Origin: Saprospiraceae bacterium
GTDB lineage: Bacteria; Bacteroidota; Bacteroidia; Chitinophagales; Saprospiraceae
Reading direction: 5' to 3'
Length of the DNA: 32,305 nucleotides
Assembly: GCA_030645295.1 (NCBI GenBank)
Contig: JAUSMG010000220.1
Location: 1-32,305, forward strand
The notes under the pieces were generated by a model, which saw nothing but the letters and a program-made list of their open reading frames with translations, searched no databases and was not told where the DNA came from. Below, piece after piece: positions 2,342 through 12,698 of the stretch; position 1 is the first letter of the stretch; the number at the start of each line of letters is the position of its first letter. The translations under genes and the position numbers were made by a program.

Positions 2342-4780
2342 TTATGCAGAACACGCTTCGCAGTCCGGATTATCAATACTGCAAATCTTGCCTGCTACCT
2401 GTTCGATGTCCAGCGCCGACATCTGCACAGGAGCAGGCGCCGCTTTTTCTGCCGCCACGCTCGCCGTTACGATCGGCTCCGTAGACTTTGCATTCTGCAC
2501 AAACTTCTGCTGGTGCTTTTTGCTGAGGGTGAACTTGATCGGGTCGGTGGCCGCCTTGGAGCGGAGGTAGTACATGCCCGTTTTCAGGCCTTTTTGCCAG
2601 GCGTAGAAGTGCATCGACGAGAGTTTAGCAAACGTCGGCGCTTCCATGAACACGTTGAGGCTCTGGCTCTGGCAGATGTAAGCGCCACGATCCGCACTCA
2701 TGTCAATGATGACTTTCTGGCTGATTTCGTAGGCGGTTTTGTACACGTCGCGGACTTCTTTCGGAATGTCCTCGATGCCTTGTACCGAGCCGTTGGCGGC
2801 CATGATGGCTTCGCGCATTTCTTCGTCCCACATGCCGAGGCGCACGAGGTCGCGCATGAGGTGTTTGTTCACCACAATGTGCTCGCCCGCGAGGGTACGA
2901 CGGGTGTAGAGGTTCGAGGTATAAGGCTCGAAGCACTCGTTGTTGCCCAGGATCTGGCTGGTGCTGGCTGTTGGCATCGGCGCCACCAGTAGTGAATTGC
3001 GCAGTCCAACCTGCTTCACGCGCTCGCGCAAACCATCCCAATCCCAACGTTTTGAAGGGGTTACGCCCCATAGATCGAACTGGAACATGCCCTTGCTCAT
3101 CGGCGAACCCTGGAAGGTTTCGTAGGCGCCCAGTTTCTCCGCCAGGCTGGCAGATTCCGTCACTGCGGCGAAATAGATGGTCTCAAAAATGTCCTTGTTC
3201 AACTGCTTCGCTGCCTCGCTGTCGAAGGCCATACCCATCAGAATGAACGCATCGGCCAGTCCCTGCACCCCCAAACCAATGGGACGGTGGCGCATGTTCG
3301 AGTTCCGCGCTTCCGGGATCGGGTAGTAGTTTACATCAATGACCTTGTTCAGGTTGCGGGTCGCCACTTTGGTGATCTCCACAAGTTTGTCAAAGTCAAA
3401 TTTGCCGTTCACTACAAATTTTGGCAACGCAATGGACGCCAGGTTACACACCGCCACCTCGTCTTTCGATGTGTATTCGATGATCTCCGTGCAAAGGTTG
3501 GAGGAGCGAATGGTGCCCAGGTTTTGCTGGTTGCTCTTCTGATTTGCCGCGTCTTTGTAGAGGATGTAGGGAGTACCGGTTTCCGTCTGGCTTTCCATCA
3601 CGGCGTTCCAGAGATCGCGGGCTTTCACCACTTTACGGGCGCGGCCTTCTTTTTCGTACTGGTGGTACAGCGCTTCAAATTTCGCTCCGTACACGTCGAA
3701 CAGGCCCGGCGCTTCGTTCGGATCGAACAGCGTCCAGTCCGCATCGGCTTTCACGCGTTCCATGAATAAGTCGCTGATCCACAGGGCATAGAACAGGTCC
3801 CGGGCGCGGTTTTCTTCCTTGCCGTGGTTCTTTTTTAGTTCCAGAAACTCAAAAATATCGGCGTGCCATGGCTCGATATACACCGCGAAGGCGCCCTTGC
3901 GTTTGCCGCCGCCCTGGTCCACGTAGCGGGCCGCGTCGTTGAACACGCGCAGCATCGGGATGATCCCGTTGGAGGTGCCGCCTGTGCCTTTAATGTAGGA
4001 ACCCGTGGCGCGAATGTTGTGGATGCTCAGGCCGATGCCGCCCGCGCTCTGGCTGATGAGGGCGCAGCGGGAAAGCGTCTCGAAAATGCCCGCAATACTG
4101 TCGTCCGTCATGGTGAGCAGGAAGCAGGACGACATCTGTGGCTTTGGCGAGCCGGCGTTGAACAAGGTGGGCGTGGCGTGGATAAACCAGCGCTCGCTCA
4201 TCAGGTTGTAGGTCTCTATGGCCGCATCGATGTCTTCGCCGTGGATGCCGACGGCTACGCGCATGAAGAGGTGTTGTGGACGTTCCGCCACCTTGCCGTT
4301 CATGCGCATGAGGTAGGAGCGTTCCAGCGTTTTGAAGCCGAAGTAATCGAAGTCAAAATCGCGGTCAAAAATGATCGCCGAGTCGAAGCGGGACTTGTGC
4401 TGCTGCACGGTGCGATGGGTATCATCGCTGATGAGTCCTGCGCGATCGCCGGTTTTAGGATCCACATAGTGATAGAGATCGTCTATCACCTTGGAGAAAG
4501 ATTTTTCGGTCTCCTTGTGGAGGTTGCTCACAGCGATGCGCGCGGCCAACAGGGCATAGTCCGGGTGGATCGTAGCCATGGTGGCGGCTGTTTCTGCCGC
4601 AAGGTTGTCGAGTTCGACGGTGGTCACGCCGTCGTAAAGCCCCATGATGACTTTTTTAGAGACTTCAATGAGGTTGACGTAATTGGTATCGAGACCATAC
4701 GTCATTTTGCGGAGGCGCGCCGTGATCTTGTCGAACGACACTTCCTCTTTCTGACCGCTGCGTTTGATTACTTGCATCAT
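2342..4780 (-). CDS. nrdA: ribonucleoside-diphosphate reductase, alpha (large) subunit, class Ia, eukaryote-like
   Basis: 812 aa; N-terminal ATP-cone ([22 protein letters not shown]), [37 protein letters not shown]-terminal redox tail [13 protein letters not shown] resembling eukaryotic R1 tails. Confidence 0.97.
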
Positions 4781-4845: not shown

Positions 4846-5187
4846 TTATATCTGATTGAGCATATTTTCCATTTGCTGTTTGAAGTCGGCAAGTTTAGTC
4901 TCGCGTATTTCCCAAATGATGTTGTAGTCAATTCCAAAATAATCGTGGGCGATCCTGTGCCGAAGTCCTATAATCCTGCGCCATTCGACTTCTGGGAACT
5001 CGCTGTGCAATCGCTCCTCGATCCGGTTGGCTGCTTCGCCAATGATTTCAAAATTGCGCACAACGGCATCTGCGGTACGTTCGTCCTGCATAAAGTCGCC
5101 GAATTCCATCCCCGCTGTGTAGCGGAATATCTTGTCAATGGACTCAATTATGTCCATCAATAGGTCTTTGTTGCTTCGTTTAGACAT
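4846..5187 (-). CDS. HepT-like HEPN ribonuclease toxin (DUF86)
   Basis: 113 aa; contains RHRIAHDYF, i.e. RX4HXY HEPN motif; start overlaps the end of the upstream nucleotidyltransferase by 8 nt. Confidence 0.88.
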   Translation of the reverse strand: MSKRSNKDLLMDIIESIDKIFRYTAGMEFGDFMQDERTADAVVRNFEIIGEAANRIEERLHSEFPEVEWRRIIGLRHRIAHDYFGIDYNIIWEIRETKLADFKQQMENMLNQI

Positions 5188-5470
5188 ACTTCAAGTCTGA
5201 TTCAATGTGTTTAAAATAGCGGTCTTTCACACCGTTTCGAGTCACTAAGTCCACTTTACAGCCGAGCAGATCCTCCAACTCGCAAGCCAGGTCAATAAAT
5301 TCAATCCCGACTGGTTCGTTGAATTCCACCATGATATCCACATCGCTATCCGGCCTGTTGTCGCCCCGGCTGACCGAGCCGAAAATGGCCAGGCTTTTCA
5401 GCGGGTACTTGCTGAAAAGGTGCTCGCGCTGGGCGGCTAAAGTGGCGGATATGGTGGAGAAGTTGGTCAT
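5180..5470 (-). CDS. MntA-like minimal nucleotidyltransferase (antitoxin)
   Basis: IFGSVSRGDNRPDSDVDIMVEF matches GSX10DXD of MNT domains. Confidence 0.88.
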   Translation of the reverse strand: MTNFSTISATLAAQREHLFSKYPLKSLAIFGSVSRGDNRPDSDVDIMVEFNEPVGIEFIDLACELEDLLGCKVDLVTRNGVKDRYFKHIESDLKYV

Positions 5471-6979: not shown

Positions 6980-7336
6980 TCACATATCCCATGGCTCTTC
7001 CCCGATAGTCCAAACTGGCAAATTGCCTTTTTCTATTTCCGCTTCACTATTCAAAAACCGCCAATCAGGATTGAATTTGGCAATCAGCGCCTCCTTTTTC
7101 TTTCGTGTCCAACCTTTGATTTGCTTCTCTCTGGCTATGGCCCACTCAATGTGGAAATAGTATTCGTAATAAATCAAGTTATAGCAGAAGTACTTTCCGG
7201 CAAAGGTCTTTCGCTCGTCCATGTTGTCTGCAAGATGTTCTTCCATTCGGCGTCCGAGGTCATTGGTCACGCCTGTGTACAGCACAGTTTTTACTGGGTT
7301 GGTAGTGATGTAAATAAAGTAGTTGTGGTGTTTCAT
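6980..7336 (-). CDS. GIY-YIG nuclease superfamily protein
   Basis: NYFIYITTNPVKTVLYTGVTNDLGRRMEEH...KYFCYNLIYYEYYFHIEWAIAREKQIKGWTRKKKEALI is typical of small standalone GIY-YIG proteins. Confidence 0.9.
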   Translation of the reverse strand: MKHHNYFIYITTNPVKTVLYTGVTNDLGRRMEEHLADNMDERKTFAGKYFCYNLIYYEYYFHIEWAIAREKQIKGWTRKKKEALIAKFNPDWRFLNSEAEIEKGNLPVWTIGEEPWDM

Positions 7337-7375: not shown

Positions 7376-8530
7376 TCATCCCGCCGCCTTCACCACTTTC
7401 ACCCGCGCCACGCTCCCCCCCTGCTTGATCACCACCCAATACATGCCTGGCGCCCAATTCGCTGTCTCTATGCTAATCTGTCCGCCAGCGCTGGGCGAAA
7501 GCGTCTGTTGTAATCTCCCCAGCGCGTCAAAAACTTGAACCCTTTGCACCGGGCGCTGATCTTTGGATTGTAGCACCAAATGGTCCTGCGCCGGATTTGG
7601 GAACGCTGCCCAATTAGTCCCCAGCGATTCAGGCGTTTCCGTTTCCGAAAGTTGATCCAGCCGATACTGACTGAAAAACCGCCAGATCTCTTTGCAGGCG
7701 TTAAAATCCTGATTCGTGACACCAATGTTGAACGCCGCACCCGGCCAGGTGTGTCCGCCACCGATGATCTTGTAATGTTCCACGGTGCTGCCCTGATCAC
7801 CGCCGCTGAAAAGTTGTCGCTCTGCCGTACAGCCATCGGTTGGGTTGGTGTTCGGCACCTGAGTGATGCTGGGGGTAGGATTGCAGTGGTTGAAATCCAC
7901 CCAGGCATCCAACAGGGCAGGGATCGCAACAAAAGTGGCCAGTGGCGAACCATTATAAGGCACCGTGTTATCCGCAGTGCCGTGGATTTCCATCACCGGT
8001 ACCGGGCGTACGGGATCGCAGGCATTGAGTCTGGACTGGATCATACTGCCTGTCACAGAGGCGATGGCGGTGATTCGGTCGTTCAGTTCGCAGGCTAGGG
8101 TATAACTCATGAAGCCGCCGTTGCTCATGCCGGTGCTATACACCCGGTTTGCGTCGATGTTGTAGGTCGTTTGCAGGGTATCGAGCAAATCCCGGATAAA
8201 GCCCACATCGTCTACGTTGGAATTGCCAAGAAAGGTGTTCCAAAAACGTTCTCCCTGTCCATCCAGGGTGCCATTGGGCAGCACGATCAAAAAATTGGCC
8301 GTGTCCGCAAGGGCGCTGAAATCTCCGTAAAACGCCTGTTCCAGGTTGTTGGAAGAATAGCCATGCAGGTTGAAAACAAGCGGCGTCGCAGTGTTTCCAG
8401 TATAGGCTGTCGGGACATATACCAGGTATTCCCGCGTCAGTCCACCGCTCTGGATGGTACCCTGAACAAGATTCTGGGCAAATAATGAGGCTGCAAACAG
8501 CAGGCAGATCAGTGTGTATAAAATGCGCAT
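7376..8530 (-). CDS. secreted PHB depolymerase/feruloyl esterase-like hydrolase with T9SS type A sorting domain
   Basis: Start moved to MRILYTLICLLFAASLFAQ (ATG 8528-8530). LVFNLHGYSSN, nucleophile elbow STGMSNGGFMSY, GGGHTWPG; C-terminal FPNPAQDHLVL...GMYWVVIKQGGSVARVKVVK. Confidence 0.88.
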   Translation of the reverse strand: MRILYTLICLLFAASLFAQNLVQGTIQSGGLTREYLVYVPTAYTGNTATPLVFNLHGYSSNNLEQAFYGDFSALADTANFLIVLPNGTLDGQGERFWNTFLGNSNVDDVGFIRDLLDTLQTTYNIDANRVYSTGMSNGGFMSYTLACELNDRITAIASVTGSMIQSRLNACDPVRPVPVMEIHGTADNTVPYNGSPLATFVAIPALLDAWVDFNHCNPTPSITQVPNTNPTDGCTAERQLFSGGDQGSTVEHYKIIGGGHTWPGAAFNIGVTNQDFNACKEIWRFFSQYRLDQLSETETPESLGTNWAAFPNPAQDHLVLQSKDQRPVQRVQVFDALGRLQQTLSPSAGGQISIETANWAPGMYWVVIKQGGSVARVKVVKAAG

Positions 8531-8565
8531 AGCAGTATAATTTGAATTTATAAGGATATCCTGGC

Positions 8566-9180
8566 TCAATTATTCCCCACAGCCTTCAGCACCTCCTCGG
8601 GCATGATGGTCTCGAAGAGTATTTTCTGCTTCTCTCCAGTGGGGCCTTTCTCGGAGCGTTTGTCTTCAATCAGCGACCATCTTGGAGAAGCGGGATCCTT
8701 GTATGCAATGAGGCGTTTGTTTTTTAAAGCGATTTTCATAGTCGACTCGCCTTCCATCTGCACATTTTCAGCGCCTAATTGATTTTTGAAAATGGTGACC
8801 ATGAGTGCTTTGTACCCTGGTTCGCCCTTCAGTTCCATTCTCATACTTCCATCATATTGGATCATGGTCCAGTAATAGGCACCAGCCTTCTTGATGTTGA
8901 TCTTTTTCTTTTCTTTGAAATCCAGGCCGGTCAGTTGGATCGTCATGTACTCATTGTCCATGGAATGCATCATGCTTGCTTTCAGGGAATCCCGTGGAAC
9001 CACTTCAAACATTTTAGGCGGCATGAACTGGAGGCTGTTATCAAAATCGCCTGCCAGGGTGTACTGCCGATACGCTTCTAAATCACGGGTCAGCATGGCT
9101 GCCAACTCCTTTTTGCTTTGCGCCTCAAGGGTTTGAACCGTTAATAAAAATGCAGTAAGACAAAGAACTAAGTGTTTCAT
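8566..9180 (-). CDS. hypothetical secreted protein
   Basis: 204 aa with signal peptide MKHLVLCLTAFLLTVQTLEAQ. Confidence 0.7.
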   Translation of the reverse strand: MKHLVLCLTAFLLTVQTLEAQSKKELAAMLTRDLEAYRQYTLAGDFDNSLQFMPPKMFEVVPRDSLKASMMHSMDNEYMTIQLTGLDFKEKKKINIKKAGAYYWTMIQYDGSMRMELKGEPGYKALMVTIFKNQLGAENVQMEGESTMKIALKNKRLIAYKDPASPRWSLIEDKRSEKGPTGEKQKILFETIMPEEVLKAVGNN

Positions 9181-9317: not shown

Positions 9318-9653
9318 TTAGGCTGCGGTCTTGTCGTCCACGGTCGCGTCGGGCGCATTGCTTTTTACGGATTCAATCCCGTTGTCGCGGCTTGCTTCGC
9401 TTTCGTACATTTGGCTGCTGCCGATGATCTGGCCGTTGGTGGACTTGAGATTGAAGTAGTATTTCCCGTTGGAAGATTCTTTGCGCTCGAAACGAGCGTC
9501 GTCGGCGGAATTCTTGCGCACAGATTCAATGCCATTGAGGCAAGATGCTTTGGCGGAGTAGCCCTCGCTGCTGAGGATGACCTGATGGTTGCCAGCAAGT
9601 AGATTGAACTGAAACTCGCCGTTGGCGCGGGTGGTAATGACAAATTTGCCCAT
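9318..9653 (-). CDS. DUF1508 (YegP-like) protein with two tandem repeats
   Basis: GEFQFNLLAGNHQVILSSEGYSAKASCLNGIESVRKN and GKYYFNLKSTNGQIIGSSQMYESEASRDNGIESVKSN. Confidence 0.92.
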   Translation of the reverse strand: MGKFVITTRANGEFQFNLLAGNHQVILSSEGYSAKASCLNGIESVRKNSADDARFERKESSNGKYYFNLKSTNGQIIGSSQMYESEASRDNGIESVKSNAPDATVDDKTAA

Positions 9654-9682
9654 AAAATAAAATTTGGTTGATAATCAATTGT

Positions 9683-10669
9683 TTAGAAGTCCGCTTCGGT
9701 GCTAAACACCTGTTCTTCGCGCTTGGTCATAACCCCTGCTTTGGCGTAGTCGCCTACCCGTTTTTCGAAGAAATTGGTCTTGCCCTGAATAGAGATCATA
9801 TCCATCCAGGAGAAGGGATTGGCGGTGAGGTAAGCCTTCTCACAGCCCAGGGACATGAGCAGGCGGTCGGCCACAAACTCGATGTATTGTCCCATCATCT
9901 CGGCATTCATACCAATGAGCGAAACGGGCAATGCATCGGTCACAAATTCTTTCTCATACTCCACGGCTTCGGTGATGATGGCATGCACCTCGGCAGGGTC
10001 GAGTTTGTTTTCCAGCATCGAATAGAGCAGGCAGGCGAAATCGCAGTGCATGCCTTCGTCGCGGCTGATGAGCTCGTTGGAGAAGGTGAGGCCTGGCATG
10101 AGGCCGCGTTTTTTGAGCCAATAGATGGAACAGAACGAGCCGCTAAAAAAGATGCCTTCTACAGCTGCGAACGCAATAAGCCGGTGCGCGAACGTTGGAG
10201 AGTTTTCTATCCAGCGAAGGGCCCATTGGCCTTTTTTCGACACACATTCGAGGTTTTGAAGTGCATTGAACAGGAAGTCTTTTTCCTTTGGATCTTTAAT
10301 ATAGGTGTCGATAAGCAGCGAGTACATCTCGGCGTGGATGTTCTCGATGGCCACCTGAAAACCGTAGAAACAACGGGCTTCGGGTATCTGTACCTCGCGC
10401 ATGAAGTTGAGCACAAGGTTCTCGTTCACGATGCCGTCGGAAGCTGCGAAAAAGGCCAGTACGTGTTTGACGAATTTGCGGTCGTTGTCGGTGAGTTTGT
10501 TGTCCCAGTCGTTGATGTCCTGCGTAAGGTCCACCTCTTCTACGGTCCAGAAAGAGGCCACCGATTTTTTGTACCAATCCCAGATGGTACCGTATTTAAT
10601 GGGGAAAAGCACGAACCGGTCAGGGTTATCGGCCAGAATTGGTTCGGAAAAGTTGGCTATTTGTACCAT
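9683..10669 (-). CDS. nrdB: ribonucleoside-diphosphate reductase, beta (small) subunit, class Ia, eukaryote-like
   Basis: [41 protein letters not shown] (metal ligands and radical Tyr), C-terminal tail VFSTEADF resembling the R2 tail FTLDADF. Confidence 0.96.
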
Positions 10670-10923
10670 TGGTTATTGCAGTTGCTGCGAATTGGTTTGA
10701 CTATTATTTTGAACTAAAAAAATATCAACACGATGCTTATATATTCCCCAATAGAGCGACTAAAAAGCCCGTTTTTTGAGGCAAGACAGTTCCCCGAACG
10801 GCTTGATGGCCGCTTGGAAAATCTCGATAGGAGTGAAGGGACGATACAGAGGAAAGGCGGAGTAAAAAACCTGCTGAATAGCGGAAGCGAAAGTAGCGCG
10901 TTTCTACCTTTTGTCAAAGATTG

Positions 10924-11023
10924 TTTTCCACAGAATGTTTATAACTTTCGCAAATAATTGATTATCAATGTATAATTTTTATAGAAGAATTTCTCAACAA
11001 TGTGGATAACTTGATGTGGATAA
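10924..11023. promoter_or_regulatory. DnaA-box cluster (two perfect TGTGGATAA boxes plus an inverted TTTTCCACA)
   Basis: TTTTCCACA 10924-10932; TGTGGATAA 11001-11009 and 11015-11023; AT-rich spacer containing the palindrome ATTGATTATCAAT (10957-10969). Confidence 0.6.
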
Positions 11024-11193
11024 ATTCTGAAGAAAAAAAAGCGTATCCGTCCACGGGCAGAAACCAGCTTTATAACCTCTTCATTTTGAGGGGAAAACAG
11101 GGTTGAAAAAATTAAAATTGAGCGATAAGTGCGATGTGGAGATCGTGTTGAAAAGCCTCTTTCCAAAGGCAATCCATTGACAGAAGTCTAAAG

Positions 11194-11201
11194 TATCTTT
11201 G
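11194..11201 (+). promoter_or_regulatory. candidate Bacteroidota -7 box (TAnnTTTG) upstream of the 11244 gene
   Basis: TATCTTTG 43 nt before the ATG; no good -33 TTTG at standard spacing. Confidence 0.4.
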
Positions 11202-11243: not shown

Positions 11244-12698
11244 ATGCAAAAAACACGCACGTTCCTGGCACTGCTGCTCTTCGCAGCCAAACTCTCTGCC
11301 CAAGCCCCCTACACAGCCAAACAATACGGCTACCGGGTCGAAAAAGACCTGGAATATGGCGTGGCTCCCAATTACGCTGGAATACCAACTTCTCTTACGC
11401 TGGACCTGTACAAACCCATTGGCGATAACAATCTCCAACGACCCATCATGGTGCTCGTGCACGGAGGCTCCTGGCTTTCGGGTTGCAAGGAAACTGAGGC
11501 TTTGTTCGCTGTGGAACTTGCTCAACGCGGCTACGTGGTTGCTTCCGTCAATTACCGGAAAGGTTGGCACAAAGCAGCCTTTGTCGCAAACCCTGGACCA
11601 ACGCCAAACGGGTACCCCAGCAATTGCCTGTATGCGGCTGATTCTCTGGAACTTATCCGCGCCATCTACCGGGGACAGCAGGACGTAAAAGGCGCCATCC
11701 GATGGCTCAAAGCCCGCTCGGCTCAGGATTCAAGTTGCAACCATAAAGTGATCGTGGGCGGCCAAAGTGCCGGGGCTTTCCTTGCCCTTGCCGTTGGACT
11801 GCTCGACCGTCCAGAGGAAAAACCGCTCGCTTGCTTCGCCCTTCCGGACGCGCCTGCCCCCGCAGCAAATGTGACCAACTGCTACGACCAAAACTGCGTA
11901 ATGCAGCTGATAAATCCTACGGGCGCGGCTTTGCAACGCCCTGACCTGGGTTCTCTGGGCGGAACCCTGAACCTGAACGGGTACAACGATAATGTGATCG
12001 GTGTAGCCAGTTTCTTCGGCGGGGTACCTTACGAAGCGCTTCCAAACAACTGGCTTCAGGGTCCTGATACACCGGCAATCTACCTCTACCACCAGACCTG
12101 CGACGGTGTGGTGCCTTTCGGCTACGATCAGCCGATGACCACCCTTTCCGCTTATTGCAACCTCGGTTTTACGCCCTGGCATACCAATTTCATGCACACA
12201 TTTGGCAACGGGGCCATAGCATCAGCCCTGCAGTCCATGCCCGATCCACCACCCTTTACTACTGATTTTCTAGCCTGCGATCCATTCATTCCAGGCCTGG
12301 CTTTGTTTGAATGCGCCCGCTATGGAAACAATGGATCCTACCATTACGCACACAATCCTCTGGATAGGATGCAAAAACTCGCTGATTTTTTCAGCCCTAT
12401 TGTTTTAGGGACGAGCTGTTTCACCGTTTCTGCCCAGGAGCCCAAAACGGACTTACAAGCCCTGGTGTCGCCCAATCCTTTTGTTCAGCAACTGTCTGCT
12501 TTTCTGGACAAAGCAACCGAAGGTGAAGCCAGTATTTTGCTCAGCGATGTTTCAGGAAAAACGGTTTGGTCCTCTAACCGGACACTGAACGCCGGGGAGA
12601 ACATCCTTTTTGAGCAGAATCCATTGCCCGCAGGGTTTTATGCCTTGCAAATTCGGTCGAAGGCGGGAGTAGGGGTTTGGAAAGTGGTAAGGGAGTAA
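11244..12698 (+). CDS. secreted alpha/beta hydrolase (carboxylesterase-like) with T9SS type A sorting domain
   Basis: Signal MQKTRTFLALLLFAAKLSAQ; oxyanion region VLVHGGSWLSG; nucleophile GGQSAGAF; C-terminal VSPNPFVQQLS...GFYALQIRSKAGVGVWKVVRE. Confidence 0.88.
   Translation: MQKTRTFLALLLFAAKLSAQAPYTAKQYGYRVEKDLEYGVAPNYAGIPTSLTLDLYKPIGDNNLQRPIMVLVHGGSWLSGCKETEALFAVELAQRGYVVASVNYRKGWHKAAFVANPGPTPNGYPSNCLYAADSLELIRAIYRGQQDVKGAIRWLKARSAQDSSCNHKVIVGGQSAGAFLALAVGLLDRPEEKPLACFALPDAPAPAANVTNCYDQNCVMQLINPTGAALQRPDLGSLGGTLNLNGYNDNVIGVASFFGGVPYEALPNNWLQGPDTPAIYLYHQTCDGVVPFGYDQPMTTLSAYCNLGFTPWHTNFMHTFGNGAIASALQSMPDPPPFTTDFLACDPFIPGLALFECARYGNNGSYHYAHNPLDRMQKLADFFSPIVLGTSCFTVSAQEPKTDLQALVSPNPFVQQLSAFLDKATEGEASILLSDVSGKTVWSSNRTLNAGENILFEQNPLPAGFYALQIRSKAGVGVWKVVRE

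Follow-up and report, generated by a model that had tools for sequence, protein, structure and literature searches.

A conserved DnaA-box array phased to the nrdB promoter in Saprospiraceae suggests DnaA control of ribonucleotide reductase transcription

In a 32,305-nucleotide stretch of DNA from a Saprospiraceae bacterium (the whole of it is called the window below), a cluster of DnaA boxes lies upstream of nrdB, which encodes the small subunit of a class I ribonucleotide reductase (RNR). Comparison with related genomes indicates that the cluster serves the nrdB promoter as a regulatory array bound by DnaA and that nrdB transcription is DnaA-controlled, a reading to which we assign a probability of roughly 0.8. 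Since the DnaA sites in front of the promoter are conserved and precisely spaced, a DnaA-controlled switch is the most likely explanation, and not a replication origin. A first-pass annotation of the sequence had proposed either of the two, and it is the promoter reading that is strongly supported by the comparison, through the conserved array, the fixed promoter distance and the independence of the divergent esterase gene.

Anatomy of the box array and the nrdB promoter

The elements of the region have the following window coordinates.

2342..4780, minus strand: nrdA, large RNR subunit with ATP-cone, 4.9 kb downstream of nrdB
9683..10669, minus strand: nrdB, class I RNR small subunit (Pfam Ribonuc_red_sm, E 5e-117)
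10888..10895, minus strand: nrdB promoter, predicted -7 element TACTTTCG, with 28 bp to D2
10915..10918, minus strand: nrdB promoter, predicted -33 element TTTG, with 19 bp to the -7 element
10924..10932, plus strand: DnaA box D2, TTTTCCACA (TGTGGAAAA read toward nrdB), one mismatch
10936..10944, minus strand: DnaA box D1, TTATAAACA, two mismatches here
10957..10969, no strand assigned: perfect 13-bp palindrome ATTGATTATCAAT between both box modules
10991..10999, plus strand: U3, degenerate inverted box TTCTCAACA, two mismatches
11001..11009, minus strand: DnaA box U2, exact TTATCCACA inside the conserved block GAGTTATCCACATTGT, at a family-conserved 77 bp from D2 (start to start)
11015..11023, minus strand: DnaA box U1, exact TTATCCACA
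11244..12698, plus strand: divergent secreted esterase

The boxes exist, stand at the positions first given for them and exceed by far what chance would produce. The first-pass annotation had reported the two exact boxes U2 and U1, 14 bp apart from start to start, as well as the one-mismatch box D2, and all three are present as described, in a non-coding gap that measures 574 bp from the nrdB start codon (10669) to the esterase ORF (11244), close to the earlier figure of about 570 bp. The AT-rich character of the region was also borne out, with a GC content of 0.32 at 10900-11099 compared to about 0.5 in genes, while D1, U3 and the palindrome had been missed. The number of boxes in the window is by itself weak evidence, since 12 boxes with at most one mismatch, where 7.5 are expected, were reached by 4 of 100 shuffles. 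Nor is the 9-mer enriched over the 4.96 Mb genome as a whole, which has 47 exact boxes against 41 for the reversed motif. It is the clustering that is strong, as the earlier remark about two boxes within 23 bp had implied: the U2-U1 pair is the single case of a direct box pair within 20 bp in the entire genome, where by our own arithmetic about 0.005 such pairs are expected from 47 random boxes. At least two DnaA boxes, beyond chance, are found upstream of this RNR gene.

The boxes form two modules. U1 and U2 are tandem and separated by 5 bp, and several relatives carry a near-consensus inverted box directly after U2, at the position of U3. D1 and D2 make up a convergent double box with 3 bp between the boxes, and D1 is exact or has one mismatch in many relatives. 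The palindrome lies within the AT-rich spacer between the modules and reads ATTGATAATCAAT on the minus strand, toward nrdB (10969-10957); together with the next bases it also matches the IHF consensus WATCAANNNNTTR. Palindrome-type matches number 2 in the window against 0.12 expected, the second of them being a near-copy, GTTGATAATCAAT, located directly behind the nrdB stop codon (9667-9679).

The promoter reading into nrdB has the layout TTTG-N19-TACTTTCG (10888-10918), which is of the Bacteroidota type. Its elements match the consensus of -33 TTTG and -7 TAnnTTTG (as quoted in PMC7366714), the -7 element differing at one position. This would place the start of transcription some 215 bp before the first codon of nrdB. 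The corresponding 5' leader of about 215 nt (10680-10888, minus strand) contains a moderately conserved TTTACTCCGCCTTT block, and a search of the leader against Rfam for an RNA element returned no family.

In most named relatives nrdA is found close behind nrdB. In the 4.9 kb that separate the two genes in the window we find a HepT-like/nucleotidyltransferase pair (4846-5470), a GIY-YIG-like ORF (6980-7336), a secreted esterase (7376-8569) and a DUF1508 protein (9318-9653).

Conservation of the array upstream of nrdB and of dnaB

The DNA upstream of nrdB was compared among relatives, the named near relatives being Saprospiraceae and other Bacteroidota, and one locus (L058) was left out because the nrdB start was not found there. 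When 36 same-genus genomes are aligned, the conserved blocks coincide precisely with U2, with the palindrome, with the D1-D2 pair and with the -7 element, and the sequence between them is poorly conserved. For quantification, boxes were counted in the 520 bp upstream of nrdB, with the mean of 40 permuted motifs as control; as the genomes are related, the counts are not independent. The conserved boxes that the first-pass annotation had suggested looking for in relatives are there: 35 same-genus genomes contain 40 exact boxes (0.12 for permuted motifs) and 134 boxes with at most one mismatch (4.2 for permuted motifs), and 15 genomes from other genera of the family contain 20 exact boxes (0.05 for permuted motifs) and 44 with at most one mismatch. 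Among 79 named genomes we counted 51 exact boxes and 141 with at most one mismatch. In this named set boxes were found upstream of nrdB in Saprospiraceae, Hymenobacter and Pontibacter, and were not found in Pedobacter, Flectobacillus and most Chitinophagaceae. The array is also absent at nrdB of G137, a closed Saprospiraceae genome (one closed genus examined). These absences imply that members of the phylum can express nrdB without the array.

The geometry of the array is conserved as well. In all 36 same-genus genomes a -7 motif follows D2 at 28-30 bp, and between 3 and 79 bp it was seen at no other spacing, which places the boxes close to, and in phase with, a recognisable nrdB promoter in every one of them. 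Distances from an upstream box to D2 cluster at 76-78 and 89-92 bp both in the genus and in other genera, with 77 or 90-91 bp as the spacing between the modules, and the layout is kept between genera despite differing flanking sequence. A search for the convergent double box pattern TTATNNACANNNTGTGGANAA in the family gave 57 places, or about one per genome. Of these, 42 lie within 700 bp upstream of nrdB; reversed controls give 0-1 per genome. The esterase is present upstream of the array in only 9 of 51 family loci and is therefore not a conserved target of the boxes, whose conservation is independent of the gene on the other side. Taken together, the placement of TTATNNACANNNTGTGGANAA, the promoter spacing and the rarity of the esterase point to nrdB as the target. 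The palindrome is conserved in the genus and present in some other genera, and it was absent from the dnaB and oriC regions examined.

Convergent double boxes were also seen at other places. Two species carry a second one between nrdB and nrdA (G008:C23:19278-19298 and G024:C258:15772-15792), and at least three same-genus species have one upstream of an ORF resembling a peptidoglycan peptidase, of M23 type as judged by eye (L337:~700-850, L346 and L347). Yet another lies just upstream of a ParA-like gene with a small partner ORF (L335; G046:C49:56216), which is perhaps a plasmid or partition locus.

A box array with fixed spacing (20, 27 and 22 bp) is conserved in the genus upstream of dnaB (L101:4970-5210 in G009:C4, L102 and L201-L230), and in our own genome it is found at G000:C462:720-932 with five boxes of at most one mismatch. 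When 36 dnaB loci, some of which duplicate one another, are pooled, they contain 44 exact boxes, where permuted motifs give 0.1. In the family's other genera, closed genomes have few boxes upstream of dnaB or none. The dnaB reading frames themselves are 711-1076 aa long in many same-genus genomes (G008, G022, G024, G017, G029, G035, G000:C263 and others); in the long frames the DnaB homology is broken after about residue 244 or 413, and G007 and G009 have no interruptions. The interruptions are probably inteins at two sites.

Alternative explanations and the origin of replication

The datA and DARS sites consist of DnaA boxes with an IHF-like motif, and it could be argued that the cluster is a titration or reactivation site of this kind which lies in the nrdB intergenic region by chance. 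The composition is indeed similar, with clustered boxes and an IHF-like motif between them, and a cluster of this strength must bind some DnaA. Unlike datA and DARS, however, the nrdB array is phased to a promoter and tied to one gene: the distance to the -7 element is fixed at 28-30 bp in all 36 genomes, the gene is the same in all genera though the upstream neighbour changes, and the second copy of two species lies between nrdB and nrdA. We consider it unlikely that the main role of the cluster is of the datA or DARS kind, though it may also titrate DnaA.

It is highly improbable that another transcription factor is the main regulator, with the palindrome as its site and the TTATCCACA-like repeats as part of its operator. 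The palindrome would suit such a factor in being conserved in the genus and, among the regions examined, specific to the nrdB region. It is lost, however, in several species that keep the boxes, and the repeats agree with the DnaA consensus not only in sequence but also in occurring in both orientations. The origin clusters of 18-22 boxes in the family, which are described below, are built from this motif too.

The suggestion that the cluster is the chromosomal oriC next to nrdB was a natural one, considering several DnaA boxes and an AT-rich stretch in an intergenic region between divergent genes, but it was not borne out. In three closed Saprospiraceae genomes (G207, G142 and G137) the GC-skew minimum, which the first-pass annotation had proposed to look for at the cluster, is instead located by the COX15 and SRAP genes, far from nrdB. 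In G207 (main contig 7.3 Mb) a cluster of 22 boxes between COX15 and SRAP marks the change from negative to positive skew, at 0.378 Mb, and nrdB is found at 4.01 Mb, near the opposite skew change and almost opposite to oriC. In G142, a single contig of 7.5 Mb, the turn comes at approximately 2.35-2.5 Mb, beside COX15/SRAP, and nrdB at 0.298 Mb still has five boxes in about 100 bp. In G137 the skew changes near 2.05 Mb at the COX15/SRAP gap with its 18 boxes, and nrdB lies at 0.955 Mb. G207 and G137 thereby also provide the better DnaA-box cluster elsewhere that was to speak against an origin at nrdB. The candidate origins are the following.

L276:3952-5244 (G207): COX15-SRAP gap, candidate oriC, 22 boxes
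L302:1828-3237 (G137): COX15-SRAP gap, candidate oriC, 18 boxes
L296:8752-9397 (G142): COX15-SRAP gap, candidate oriC, 5 boxes

The oriC of the family is thus probably situated between the COX15 and SRAP genes, at the GC-skew minimum of the three closed genomes. It shares the 9-mer and the AT-rich setting with the nrdB array and differs from it in having 5 to 22 boxes over 0.65-1.4 kb, in its position at the skew minimum and in that nrdB is not nearby. In our own, incomplete assembly the oriC can be placed only tentatively, by the synteny in the family: COX15 is found at G000:C475:5118-6182, and the stretch upstream has only three boxes with at most one mismatch, which makes this region a weaker candidate. 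Sampled in 20 kb pieces, the skew of the same-genus genome G009 does not change sign from one side of nrdB to the other; these data are too noisy to place the origin of G009 itself. With nrdB megabases away from the skew change in the closed relatives and the array phased to the nrdB promoter, we regard an origin at nrdB as extremely improbable. The cluster upstream of dnaB was likewise considered as oriC and rejected, since dnaB of G137 is located at 2.79 Mb, 0.7 Mb from the skew change, and since in other genera the closed genomes carry few boxes at this place or none.

Finally, that the boxes regulate the esterase, which is the other flanking gene and has a possible -7 motif TATCTTTG at 11194-11201, or form a non-functional chance cluster, can be dismissed almost entirely, as 170 bp separate the boxes from that motif, their spacing to the nrdB promoter is fixed, they persist at family loci where the esterase is missing, and the enrichment over permuted motifs excludes chance.

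Putative DnaA control of nrdB and its relation to known systems

From the arrangement of the sites we infer that DnaA would bind cooperatively at two places. One is the convergent double box D1-D2, between whose end and the -33 element about 5 bp remain, and the other is the tandem pair U1-U2, which lies about 77-91 bp farther upstream. Across the AT-rich spacer the two modules may be connected at the palindrome by a protein that bends DNA or is dimeric, and the presence of a second module and a palindrome suggests that the complex is looped or bent. The level or nucleotide state of DnaA would then set the transcription of RNR. Regarding the sign of the regulation, the closeness of D1-D2 to the -33 element, on its upstream side, and the analogy with E. 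coli suggest activation or an E. coli-like dual switch rather than simple repression. Counting against DnaA control of nrdB are the degenerate D1 box of our own genome and the absence of the array from G137 and the other groups named above.

The lineage has a DnaA protein with a box-binding domain: DnaA of the same-genus genome G009 contains all domains, including the ATPase and the C-terminal DNA-binding domain (Bac_DnaA_C). A full-length dnaA gene was not found in our own assembly, which is 88.6% complete. The gene nrdR (TIGR00244) was found in none of 61 genomes of relatives, whereas 9 of 14 control genomes were positive, and no NrdR-box match was found near nrdB; regulation of nrdB by NrdR was therefore rejected.

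DnaA control of RNR is established in E. coli and has been proposed in Caulobacter and B. subtilis (PMC8203912). For nrdAB of E. coli it is known from experiments (PMC8203912; PMC11317965): DnaA binds cooperatively to a double box upstream of nrdA, gTTATCCACAaagTTATGCACTt, with 3 bp between the boxes (PMC11317965), and activates or represses depending on its level and nucleotide state (PMC8203912). The nrdB array is similar in having a double DnaA box with a 3 bp gap upstream of an RNR gene, the cooperative binding being that of E. coli. It differs in that the near double box is convergent and not tandem, in having a second tandem module 77-91 bp further up with a palindrome between, in the Bacteroidota -33/-7 promoter, in the gene order with nrdB first and nrdA 4.9 kb downstream, and in that NrdR was not found. 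In Caulobacter DnaA has been proposed to act on the RNR genes and dnaB; the regulon comprises nrd genes, dnaB and dnaQ, and dnaB has predicted DnaA boxes upstream (PMC8203912). An RNR gene and dnaB are likewise the two genes with conserved arrays in the genus studied here, in a different phylum, with a different layout and without detectable NrdR, which Caulobacter possesses (it served as positive control).

DnaA control of RNR as such is thus already known, and what would be new, judging from the comparison of sequences, is a DnaA-controlled RNR promoter with a layout of its own in a lineage without detectable NrdR. Our literature search found no work joining Saprospiraceae with DnaA, and none joining DnaA boxes, Bacteroidetes and ribonucleotide reductase. 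A broader proposal is possible, if on balance doubtful: DnaA may be the main transcriptional controller of class I RNR in several lineages of the Bacteroidota, a phylum that seems to lack NrdR, acting through a looped two-module complex with a second protein at the palindrome, and the same regulon may drive dnaB in the genus. If this is true, the supply of dNTPs and of helicase would follow the initiator DnaA itself. A promoter-phased array in the absence of detectable NrdR suggests either a far greater age or a repeated origin of the coupling between dNTP supply and the initiator, and for the Saprospiraceae the analysis yields a concrete candidate DnaA regulon, nrdB and dnaB, together with a likely address for oriC between COX15 and SRAP.
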